Part shown: positions 28,724-32,438 of the stretch, piece after piece
Numbering within the stretch: the first letter of the stretch is position 1
How the letters are laid out: every line of letters begins with the position of its first letter
Origin: Polynucleobacter sp. MWH-Jannik1A5
GTDB taxonomy: Bacteria > Pseudomonadota > Gammaproteobacteria > Burkholderiales > Burkholderiaceae
Assembly: GCF_018881795.1 (NCBI RefSeq)
Contig: NZ_JACVPQ010000001.1
Location: forward strand, 759,376 to 823,375
Reading direction: 5' to 3'
Length of the DNA stretch: 64,000 bases
Made by a program: the position numbers and the translations under genes
Notes under the pieces: generated by a model
Databases searched by the model: none
What the model saw: only the letters and a program-made list of their open reading frames with translations
What the model was told of the DNA's origin: nothing

Positions 28724-29554
28724 TTACTTCGTTAAGTCTAAATTATCGGCAATCGCCAAAACAGCATCAGCCTGATTGAGTGAATAGAAATGGATTCCAG
28801 GAGCACCAGCAGTTAGCAGCTGATCGCACAAATCCGTGACCACCTCTTCACCAAATGCACGAATAGAGGCAATGTCATCGCCATAGGATTGAAGGCGCAA
28901 ACGAATCCATCGTGGGATTTCTGCACCGCAGGCATCGGAGAATCTTAATAACTGGCTACTGTTTGTGATTGGCATGATTCCAGCAATGATGGGTTGAGTA
29001 ACGCCCAAGTCATATGCCTCATCCACAAAGCGGAAGTACGCATCGCTGTTATAAAAATACTGGGTGACCGCAGAGTTCGCGCCCGCCTTCATTTTTTGCA
29101 CAAAGAAATCTACATCGCTAGCAGGCGACTTTGCCTGTGGATGCGTCTCTGGATATGCAGCGACATCAATATGAAACCAATCGCCTGTTTCTGCACGAAT
29201 AAATTCTACTAATTCATTGGCATGATGAAACTCGCCATACTGGCCCATACCAGAAGGTAAGTCACCGCGCAAAGCCACAATTCGCTTTACGCCTAAGGCT
29301 TGATATTGCTTCAACATTTCGCGCACGCTTTCACGTGAGCTGCCAACACAAGATAAGTGTGGGGCAACTGCTGCACCAGCAGCATGTATGTCGCTTACCA
29401 CTTTTAATGTGCCAGACTGTGTAGAGCCGCCAGCACCAAAAGTCACGGAATAAAACGCAGGCTTGAGTGTTTCACTGAAACGCTCGCGCACAAGATGTAA
29501 CTTACTCTCACCTTCAGGTGTTTTTGGAGGAAAGAATTCAACGCTTAATTCCAT
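28724..29554 (-). CDS. metF: 5,10-methylenetetrahydrofolate reductase
   Basis: FAD enzyme making 5-methyl-THF, the methyl donor for MetH. The 276-residue TIM barrel begins MELSVEFFPPKTPEGE, with the catalytic Glu in EFFPPK, and has VTFGAGGSTQ, HLSCVG, VALRGDLP, and ITQYFYN-type AVTQYFYNSDAYFRF. It lies 37 nt after ahcY on the same strand and so probably shares the ahcY transcript and its riboswitch control. Confidence 0.96.
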   Translation of the reverse strand: MELSVEFFPPKTPEGESKLHLVRERFSETLKPAFYSVTFGAGGSTQSGTLKVVSDIHAAGAAVAPHLSCVGSSRESVREMLKQYQALGVKRIVALRGDLPSGMGQYGEFHHANELVEFIRAETGDWFHIDVAAYPETHPQAKSPASDVDFFVQKMKAGANSAVTQYFYNSDAYFRFVDEAYDLGVTQPIIAGIMPITNSSQLLRFSDACGAEIPRWIRLRLQSYGDDIASIRAFGEEVVTDLCDQLLTAGAPGIHFYSLNQADAVLAIADNLDLTK

Positions 29555-29591: not shown

Positions 29592-31037
29592 TTAATAGCG
29601 ATAGTGGTCAGCCTTGTACGGGCCTTCCTTCGTTACACCAATATAAGAAGCTTGCTGATCTGACAACACAGTCAACTCCGCATTGAGAGTCTTGAGTTGT
29701 AAGCGTGCAACCTTCTCATCCAAATGCTTAGGCAAGGTGTAAACACCGATTGGGTATTTATCTGTACCTACGGCATTCCACAATTCAATTTGAGCAATCA
29801 CTTGATTTGCAAATGAAGAGCTCATTACGTAAGAAGGATGTCCTGTACCGCAACCAAGATTAACTAAACGTCCTTTGGCCAAAATGATGATGCGCTTTTC
29901 AGGCTTGCCATTGACAGCCGGGAAAATTACATGGTCAACTTGTGGCTTAATTTCTTCCCACTTGTATTTTTCAATACCAGCTACATCGATCTCATTATCA
30001 AAGTGGCCGATATTACAAACGATGGCTTGGTTCTTCATCTTTGCCATATGGTCATGCGTAATCACATGGTAGTTGCCTGTTGCAGAAACAAAGATATCTG
30101 CTTTGTCAGCAGCGTAATCCATAGTTACAACACGGTAACCTTCCATTGCAGCTTGCAATGCACAAATTGGATCAACTTCTGTTACCCACACTTGAGCAGA
30201 TAAAGCGCGCAATGCTTGTGCAGAACCTTTGCCCACGTCGCCGTAGCCGCAAACTACTGCAACCTTACCAGCAACCATCACGTCAGTAGCGCGCTTAATC
30301 GCATCAACTAAAGATTCGCGGCAACCGTAGAGGTTATCGAATTTGCTCTTAGTAACGGAGTCGTTTACGTTGATTGCTGGGAACTTCAAATCACCCTTGG
30401 CAAACATTTGATACAAACGGTGTACGCCTGTAGTGGTTTCCTCTGTAACGCCTTTTACTTTTTCCAAGCGTGTTGAGTACCAAGTAGGATCTTGCGCCAA
30501 TTTCTTTTTAATGGCCGCAAACAAAATAGTTTCTTCTTCGCTAGTTGGGTGATTCAAGCAGGCTTGATCTTTTTCAGCGCGAGCACCAAGGTGCAATAAC
30601 AAAGTAGCGTCGCCACCGTCATCCAAAATCATGTTGGTGTAGCCGCCATCCGCCCACTCAAAAATACGATGGGTAAAGTCCCAGTACTGCTCAAGGGTTT
30701 CGCCTTTGATAGCAAACACAGGAGTGCCGTTAGCAGCAATTGCTGCAGCAGCATGATCTTGTGTAGAGAAAATATTGCATGAAGCCCATTGCACTTCAGC
30801 ACCAAGTGCCTCCAGAGTTTCAATCAGCACGGCTGTTTGAATAGTCATATGCAATGAACCAGTAATGCGTGCGCCACGGAGTGGCTGCTGTGCAGCAAAC
30901 TCATCACGAATTGCGATCAAGCCAGGCATCTCCGTTTCGGCAATCGCAATTTCTTTTCGACCAAAGTCAGCCAAAGTGATATCAGCAATTGCGCAACGAG
31001 TTGCTACAAAGTTATTTAAATCAGAAACGGTATTCAT
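29592..31037 (-). CDS. ahcY: S-adenosylhomocysteine hydrolase
   Basis: Splits S-adenosylhomocysteine into adenosine and homocysteine, relieving product inhibition of methyltransferases. The 481-residue protein has the NAD-binding [19 protein letters not shown], the substrate region [17 protein letters not shown], and the C-terminal KADHYRY. I chose ATG 31037 ([10 protein letters not shown]), which has TGGAG 6 nt upstream. The 20-residue extension to 31097 would read through the riboswitch platform and is unlikely. It stands between metK and metF and is preceded by an SAH riboswitch. Confidence 0.97.
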
Positions 31038-31077: not shown

Positions 31078-31108
31078 CTCGCTAGCCATTGAATCATGGG
31101 TTAGCGAG
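31078..31108 (-). promoter_or_regulatory. Expression-platform hairpin of the SAH riboswitch
   Basis: CTCGCTA (31108-31102) pairs with TAGCGAG (31084-31078) and is followed by TTTCT, a weak T-run 41 nt before the ahcY start. The CTC of the first arm is shared with the CGCTC pseudoknot strand of the aptamer, so aptamer and hairpin should exclude each other. This fits an ON switch in which SAH prevents an early stop of transcription. The mechanism is inferred. Confidence 0.65.
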
Positions 31109-31203
31109 CGCGGTTGCAATTAGCAAACTCCGTTTAGGAATCCACTCCCTTCAAGCCTGGGGAAGTACTGGGTCTCAGTATTCCTTGCAACGCTCCTTGA
31201 AGG
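31104..31203 (-). ncRNA. S-adenosylhomocysteine (SAH) riboswitch aptamer
   Basis: Read on the minus strand, the element shows the SAH riboswitch core. P1 is CCTTCAAG (31203-31196) with CTTGAAGG (31155-31148). The conserved GAGCGTTGCAA follows P1. A P2 hairpin pairs GGAATACTG (31184-31176) with CAGTACTTCC (31170-31161), then comes CCAGGC. A downstream AACCGCGCTC supplies CGCTC (31110-31106), which pairs with GAGCG (31195-31191) as the pseudoknot. The SAH riboswitch is a known family that turns on SAH-recycling genes when SAH accumulates, and ahcY is its classic target. Sequence, fold and target all agree. Confidence 0.9.
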
Positions 31204-31271: not shown

Positions 31272-32438
31272 TTAAAGACCTGCTGCGGCACGTAATGCAG
31301 CTGCCTTGTCTGTTTGCTCCCAAGTAAATTCTGGCTCCTCACGACCAAAGTGGCCATAAGCAGCAGTCTTCTTATAAATTGGGCGCAAGAGGTTGAGCAT
31401 CTTCACAATGCCTTTTGGACGCAAGTCAAAGTGCTCAGAAACCAATTGAGCAATCTTCTCATCTGAAATTTTGCCTGTACCAAAGGTGCTCACCATTACT
31501 GAAGTTGGCTTAGCAACACCAATCGCGTATGAGATCTGAATCAAGCACTTGCTTGCCAAACCAGCAGCAACCACGTTCTTCGCAACATAACGGCCAGCGT
31601 ATGCAGCAGAACGGTCAACCTTGGATGGATCTTTGCCAGAGAAAGCGCCGCCGCCGTGGGGGGCTGCACCGCCGTAGGTATCCACAATAATTTTGCGACC
31701 AGTTAAACCGCAATCGCCTTGTGGACCGCCGATAACAAAACGACCTGTTGGGTTAACCAAAAAGTTGATAGCACCTTTGATCAAATGTTTAGGCAATACT
31801 GGTTTGATGATTTCTTCAATGACTGCTTCACGCAATTTCTCGAGAGAAATATTTTCATCGTGCTGAGTAGACAGTACAACGGTATCAATAGAGTCGGGCT
31901 TGCCATCCACATAACGCAAGGTCACTTGTGACTTAGCATCAGGGCGCAACCAATTCAAACGACCATCACGACGCAACTGGGATTGACGCTCAACCAGGCG
32001 GTGTGAAAGGTGAATTGGCAAAGGCATCAACTCTGCAGTCTCGTCACAAGCGTAACCAAACATTAAGCCTTGGTCGCCAGCGCCTTGATCCAAGCCGTCA
32101 TCATGAGCTTTATCAACGCCTTGAGCAATGTCAGGGCTTTGCTTGTCGTAGGCAACTAATACTGCACAACCTTTGTAGTCGATACCGTAGTCAGTGTTGT
32201 CGTATCCAATTTCGCGCAAGGTATTGCGTGCAACTTGGATGTAATCAACGTTAGCGTTCGTAGTGATCTCGCCGGCCAAAACTACCAAGCCGGTGTTGCA
32301 CAAAGTTTCTGCCGCAACACGTGCGGTTGGATCTTGAGCCAAGATGGCATCGAGAATCGAATCAGAGATTTGGTCCGCTACTTTATCGGGGTGACCTTCA
32401 GAGACTGATTCTGAGGTAAAGAAGTAATCATTTGCCAT
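31272..32438 (-). CDS. metK: S-adenosylmethionine synthetase
   Basis: Makes SAM from methionine and ATP. The 388-residue protein has the N-terminal ATP and metal site [16 protein letters not shown], the flexible-loop region [12 protein letters not shown], and the glycine-rich [21 protein letters not shown], quoted in part. It is the first gene of the metK-ahcY-metF run. The ATG follows an AAGGAA tract. About 120 nt of leader with possible secondary structure lies between the predicted promoter and the start. Confidence 0.97.

Follow-up and report, generated by a model that had tools for sequence, protein, structure and literature searches.

The window analysed here, a stretch of 64,000 nucleotides from the freshwater bacterium Polynucleobacter sp. 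MWH-Jannik1A5, carries on its minus strand a SAH riboswitch between metK and ahcY-metF, which folding models suggest is probably a translational ON switch that would unmask the ribosome-binding site of ahcY. The ahcY enzyme clears a toxic by-product of methylation, and the sensor is predicted to switch its gene on. The riboswitch class, its target and its operon partner are known, and only the refolding downstream of the aptamer adds anything to them. What is observed here is the aptamer match, together with the sequence elements and how they are conserved; the switch itself is a prediction. All features described below lie on the minus strand.

A cmscan search of the entire window against Rfam 15 at the gathering threshold gave RF01057 (SAH) as the sole match, at 31204-31099, with 48.3 bits against a gathering score of 37 and an E-value of 7.6e-6 over model positions 1-78 of 78. 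The search of the whole genome found this single copy. The preliminary description of this DNA had placed a SAH riboswitch core here, with the right coordinates, and had proposed an Infernal search with the Rfam SAH model; the full-length covariance-model match above gathering is the outcome of that search. P1, P2, the GAGCG/CGCTC pseudoknot, GCAA and AGGC are all present. P1 (31203-31197 with 31154-31148) follows from sequence and alignment, and P2 (31184-31176 with 31170-31161) has one bulge and was paired by eye, two of its pairs being non-standard in the RF01057 alignment. The pseudoknot was likewise read by eye, the RF01057 model being nested; its 5′ strand GAGCG (31195-31191) lies in GGAGCG at 31196-31191, and its 3′ strand CGCTC at 31110-31106. 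As an assignment from sequence, the match confirms that the element between metK and ahcY-metF is a SAH riboswitch aptamer. Riboswitches of this class bind SAH and discriminate against SAM. The family had rightly been called known beforehand: it is RF01057, and the class with its ahcY/metF target is published, as far as the available part of Leyn 2014 (PMC4239095) goes.

The gene following the aptamer is ahcY (adenosylhomocysteinase, 29592-31037), recognized by a PF05221 match in this genome; the closest named record to its product is that of P. yangtzensis MWH-JaK3, with 99% identity. In the list of open reading frames the longest in-frame version of ahcY begins at 31097, within hairpin A (see below). 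The likely start, preferred on sequence features, is ATG 31037 (MNTVSDL), which has the Shine-Dalgarno GGAG at 31046-31043. We compared 144 leaders of the genus Polynucleobacter (86 distinct), of which 143 precede ahcY, as one (L032) does not; GGAG stands before the chosen start in 143 of the 144 and is GGGG in one. The 20-residue N-terminal extension that would begin at ATG 31097 was rejected: though in frame in many leaders, it is missing or different in several (L020, L026 and L073), and its bases sit in hairpins A and C.

The metF-like ORF (28724-29554) lies 37 bases 3′ of ahcY, and metK (31272-32438) lies upstream of the aptamer and of a promoter-like box; both names were taken over from the preliminary description. 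This gene order is common among the 45 nearest loci, where a metF match follows ahcY in 44 (the remaining one, L191, is cut short), a metK match precedes it in 42, and the aptamer core stands ahead of it in 43. Of the two loci without the core, L174 starts within the aptamer, and in L189 the corresponding place, at the end of a contig, holds unrelated sequence. In the available part of Leyn 2014 (PMC4239095) the core SAH regulon consists of ahcY and metF, and metK is not controlled by SAH riboswitches. The control of metF had been claimed as well. Its operon membership is published for the class (same source, in the part available), and the gap here is 37 bases, but its control is weaker than was claimed, because control that is translational would reach metF only through coupling or through message stability or decay. 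The gene would be co-transcribed with ahcY and would follow it by one of these routes.

The promoter-like box is TACAAT at 31218-31213, a -10-like hexamer 16 bases ahead of GGAGCG. TAYAAT was found 15-17 bases ahead of GGAGCG in 142 of the 144 genus leaders, with a shuffle expectation of 0.5%; one exception has the box at 22 bases, and in the other it is lost at a contig end. A sigma-70-type hexamer pair was sought in the window and none was found. The position of the box suggests a transcript start near the 5′ end of P1, with metK outside the control of the riboswitch because the box separates it from the aptamer. This is what the preliminary description had held for metK, and the class agrees with it in the available part of PMC4239095. 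The box is TATAAT in 25 leaders, and in 23 of them its TAA closes an open frame whose last residues are AGL, like those of metK. L032 and L051 have kept TATAAT though no frame with this ending precedes it. In the 23 leaders (for example L014, L021 and L036) the metK stop codon lies inside the box, so that metK ends within the -10-like box and the two are fused.

Between metK and the aptamer there is also a perfect 13-bp inverted repeat with a loop of four, TATGCCGTAATTG-TTTA-CAATTACGGCATA (31233-31204), which overlaps the -10-like box and abuts P1. Its centre, AATTGNTTACAATT, occurs once in the genome, and no U-tract follows the repeat in the window. The 13-bp arms are present in 87 of the 118 TACAAT-type genus leaders. 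In a set of 42 different 30-mers from 117 loci, one of the inner pairs is G-C in 15, C-G in 12, A-T in four, T-A in three, G-T in two and unpaired in six, and the seven outer pairs are each broken in 6-18 of the set. A protein operator at this palindrome was considered and seems less likely, as several inner bases that change in compensating pairs fit base pairing better. Perhaps the repeat insulates the aptamer in RNA reading through from metK, or forms a hairpin at the metK 3′ end.

How could an aptamer that ends at 31099 act on the Shine-Dalgarno at 31046-31043? Three hairpins are available downstream. Hairpin A (31108-31078) pairs CTCGCTA (31108-31102) with TAGCGAG (31084-31078) and has an inner CCAT/ATGG. 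Hairpin C (31071-31043) pairs CTCCAGC (31071-31065) with GCTGGAG (31049-31043), and its 3′ arm covers the Shine-Dalgarno. The middle hairpin B (31080-31069) takes one strand from each neighbour, the 3′ arm from A and the 5′ arm from C, and pairs GAGT (31080-31077) with ACTC (31072-31069) around the loop TTCT. It is the predicted tip of an ON-state rod (31105-31048), in which GCTAA (31105-31101) would pair with TTAGC (31052-31048) and the loop of A with the loop of C. The preliminary description had overlooked hairpins B and C, as well as the -10-like box and the 13-bp inverted repeat.

The elements form a chain of five segments: GAG (31195-31193), which is part of the pseudoknot 5′ strand, CTC-1 (31108-31106), GAG-2 (31080-31078), CTC-2 (31071-31069) and GAG-3 (31045-31043), which belongs to the Shine-Dalgarno. 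CTC-1 belongs both to the pseudoknot strand and to the first arm of hairpin A, where the preliminary description had put it. Without SAH, CTC-1 would pair with GAG-2 in hairpin A and CTC-2 with GAG-3 in hairpin C, and the Shine-Dalgarno would be hidden. A second OFF form is predicted as well, an extended rod at whose base the pseudoknot strand pairs directly with GAGC in the Shine-Dalgarno; the computed folds of some species (L006, L008, L009, L020 and others) have this pairing. With SAH, the pseudoknot would capture CTC-1, and GAG-2 would be free to pair with CTC-2 as hairpin B. The loop of A and that of C, together with GCTAA/TTAGC, would then zip into a single rod, leaving GGAG open to the ribosome.

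Each of the 18 sequence clusters of the genus leaders (85% identity) has a representative in which hairpin A can form, and this, together with RF01057 in 143 of 151 genus genomes, makes the hairpin more than a product of chance. The preliminary description had SAH switch ahcY on by blocking this hairpin. The ON direction holds in the folding computations, but the blocking of A would not by itself suffice, because 31 bases separate its end at 31078 from the Shine-Dalgarno and the clade has no clean U-tract after it. The predicted hairpin C and rod are the link that the reading with A only is missing. That description gave its platform logic as an inference, a standing which it keeps here.

The refolding was evaluated by the opening energy of the region from GGAG to ATG, with an energy model that ignores pseudoknots, tertiary contacts and kinetics; in the run over the 144 leaders the sequences were cut at the pseudoknot strand. 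Folded without constraint, the window leader is predicted to form hairpin A and a C-type hairpin over GGAG. When CGCTC is withheld, the predicted optimum is the rod without its base, with GGAG outside it. Blocking of CGCTC lowered the opening energy in all 144 leaders, on average from 7.37 to 3.32 kcal/mol, and by more than 2 kcal/mol in 137. When the middle was shuffled with CGCTC and the start region kept, the mean effect over the 18 clusters fell from 3.51 to 0.28 kcal/mol. The real effect was reached by at most three of 60 shuffles in 15 clusters; in the other three (L010, L032 and L072) no switching effect beyond the shuffles was detected. In a scan of the full 200-base leader with five-base blocks CGCTC ranked second of 152, the first being the block one base upstream. 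The effect in the full leader was 2.5 kcal/mol with CGCTC blocked and 2.2 kcal/mol (5.66 to 3.51) with both pseudoknot strands blocked. The minimum-free-energy cost of freeing CGCTC is 4.4 kcal/mol for the window, with a range of 2.4-9.1 across the 18 clusters, a cost which, we infer, a 5-bp pseudoknot with its ligand can pay.

Outside the genus, 63 of 84 loci could be parsed, and 21 were dropped where the pattern did not match strand or start. The effect exceeded 1 kcal/mol in 39 of the 63 and 2 kcal/mol in 28, and was negative in six, in a set in which at least one start (that of L210) is plainly in the wrong place and one organism can be represented by more than one locus, the shuffle control covering the genus clusters only. 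By eye and uncounted, hairpin A is visible in L205, L206, L207, L218 and L231.

The next level of comparison was covariation. A change from A to G at the middle base of GAG-2 leaves hairpin A intact through a wobble pair, so a change of partner speaks for hairpin B. Of the 128 leaders with A at this base, the local fold pairs it with T in 121 and leaves it unpaired in seven; of the 15 with G, it is paired with C in 11, with T in three and unpaired in one. These are counts of sequences and not of independent events, from local folds of which some are weak (-0.6 kcal/mol in L010). In the one remaining leader, L022 (genome G016), GAT replaces GAG on the 3′ side of hairpin A, with one pair lost in both A and B. 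Against shuffles, the complementarity of B and of the loop-loop pairing gave Fisher p-values of 1.3e-6 and 7.3e-5 when the 18 clusters were combined. Individually each was below 0.05 in four of the 18, and in the window's own cluster the values were 0.51 for B and 0.32 for loop-loop, where the fixed boundaries also cut the loop.

Within the window type (34 sequences) the loop of hairpin B, the place in which a U-tract would be expected, varies at all four positions, and 31077 and 31072-31069 are invariant. A covariation signal in B that was reached by one of 2000 permutations was discarded, being due solely to L054, which is in another register; without L054, hairpin B has no two-sided changes among the 34 sequences. 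For the loop-loop pairs, again without L054, the paired-cell count was reached by 403 of 2000 permutations, and two pairs with two-sided changes by 52 of 2000. The pairs of A, C and the rod base have no two-sided changes within this type. Covariation within the window type is thus weak, and it is mainly thermodynamics, backed by controls, that speaks for the predicted refolding, with covariation giving only part of the support.

One may ask on this account whether the aptamer is real and the hairpins downstream of it incidental, A and C serving, for example, as message stability elements. The weak covariation, the three clusters of 18 without coupling and the opposite sign in six of 63 relatives would agree with it. 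Such an explanation is very improbable in our opinion, given the shuffle and block-scan controls and the A-T/G-C swap in hairpin B across the genus. The translational switch is the preferred and probable reading.

Does hairpin A act on transcription or on translation? The natural reading of the preliminary sketch is that A is an intrinsic terminator and SAH an antiterminating ligand, with ahcY and metF both controlled at transcription. The window's hairpin A is indeed stable, at -15.9 kcal/mol, T makes up five of the eight bases following G31078, and a run of 6-8 T follows the hairpin in 14 of the 144 genus leaders (L005, L014, L015, L016, L018, L019, L021, L024, L025, L030, L036, L072, L090 and L109). 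The other 130 have no such run, and in 116 of the 144 the ten bases that follow A hold runs of no more than 1-2 T. An intrinsic terminator combines a GC-rich stem with a U-tract; in the window hairpin A has the stem, but its tail, TTTCTACT, is not conserved. Positions 31076-31073 vary among the 34 window-type sequences (T27/A6/C1, T26/C8, C24/G5/T5 and T25/C8/G1, respectively). The terminator scan of the window did not call the hairpin, with a loop limit of 3-8 which would exclude A anyway. We consider control by a terminator unlikely here, and the output in the window is most likely translation.

It might also be supposed that both layers operate, hairpin A pausing or partly terminating transcription and hairpin C masking the ribosome site, with a mix that shifts between clades of the genus. 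Some leaders with a U-tract also have a hairpin over the Shine-Dalgarno and a large fall in opening energy, for example from 12.9 to 3.9 (L014), from 10.3 to 2.4 (L021) and from 10.5 to 2.5 kcal/mol (L025). The tail in the window is poor, however, and L072, with eight T, is almost without hairpin C (-0.7 kcal/mol) and has no switching effect, as if one layer had been exchanged for the other and not mixed with it. This combination seems to us less probable still than the terminator.

On the ahcY tree the U-tract label requires at least three changes. The tree was built with FastTree from 264 kept ahcY columns and 149 rows, of which 140 were labelled genus rows; 13 labelled rows had a T run of at least five, and L032 and three short rows were dropped. 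For hairpin A the best reading is a switch strand which in some lineages became, or was, a terminator.

From here a broader and more tentative proposal can be made, which we regard as possible but doubtful. About 60 bases with two complete folds, either a pair of hairpins or a single rod, would form a five-segment relay, by which the aptamer controls a Shine-Dalgarno some 60 bases away from the pseudoknot strand in the manner of dominoes, and the same relay would be a terminator in some lineages of the genus and a ribosome-site mask in others. If it is true, Polynucleobacter would be a natural series in which a riboswitch changes its mode of control while aptamer and target are kept. The genus may offer a natural experiment of 144 leaders with one aptamer class, those with 6-8 T after hairpin A standing against those without, and the shift of riboswitches between transcriptional and translational control would become testable with a handful of natural leaders.

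How constant is the aptamer itself? RF01057 was found in 188 of 200 genomes of a family sample, in 20 of 25 genera. Of the eight genus genomes without it, five have an ahcY match and three (G033, G057 and G143) have none. In four of these five ahcY lies at a contig edge, its first matched base being 1, 2, 47 or 74, and in the fifth, G129, about 180 bases from an apparent contig end. The locus L189, seemingly on this G129 contig, has a normal leader from the loop of hairpin A onward, and some 120 unrelated bases before it (L189:1-125) stand where the aptamer and hairpin A's 5′ arm would be. A real loss of the aptamer was rejected here in favour of what is probably a misjoined contig end. The genome G033, rated 100% complete and consisting of one contig, gave neither an RF01057 nor an AhcY match. 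Searches with MetK and MetF of the window, these two run without a positive control, likewise found nothing in it. It could be taken for a natural ahcY knockout, but with MetK and MetF also missing the cause is probably a missing stretch of sequence and not biology. In one genus MAG there is a second RF01057 match of 53.3 bits (L032, at G015:C86:22063-22156), about 20 kb from the ahcY copy. The ORF downstream of it reads DGAMGTMLQRY, which we take to be typical of MetH.

The SAH riboswitch class was reportedly defined by Wang 2008. The platform proposed here is undescribed in the available parts of PMC4239095, PMC8632094, PMC10907184, PMC3280964, PMC11477058 and PMC2864571. A terminator readout of the relay in the genus was likewise not found in these parts of the literature searched, and we make no claim that either is absent from print. 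One relative, a Sulfuriferula MAG, has by pattern matching SAH-aptamer-like cores before both a metK match and ahcY (L228:348 and L228:1660). The core before metK contrasts with the available part of Leyn 2014 (PMC4239095), where metK is not under SAH riboswitches.

The RF01057 riboswitches upstream of ahcY in beta- and gamma-proteobacteria share with the window the aptamer, the pseudoknot strand, the ahcY target and the metF partner, and differ only in the downstream platform, which in Polynucleobacter is predicted to be a compact rod of A, B and C. Judged by eye, the Thiobacillus type seemingly has short direct masking, CACG..CGTG around GGAGG, in place of the rod, and the Cupriavidus type seemingly has hairpin A with a distant C instead of a compact relay. 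Terminator/antiterminator platforms resemble the present one in a strong hairpin that shares an aptamer strand, and in the T runs of the minority of genus leaders listed above, but the clade of the window differs from them in having no conserved U-tract. In translational riboswitches that sequester the Shine-Dalgarno, GGAG is paired in one of two mutually exclusive folds and free in the other. The Polynucleobacter leader would do the same, in contrast to a single anti-Shine-Dalgarno strand, through a predicted intermediate relay of hairpins, GAG-CTC-GAG-CTC-GAG.
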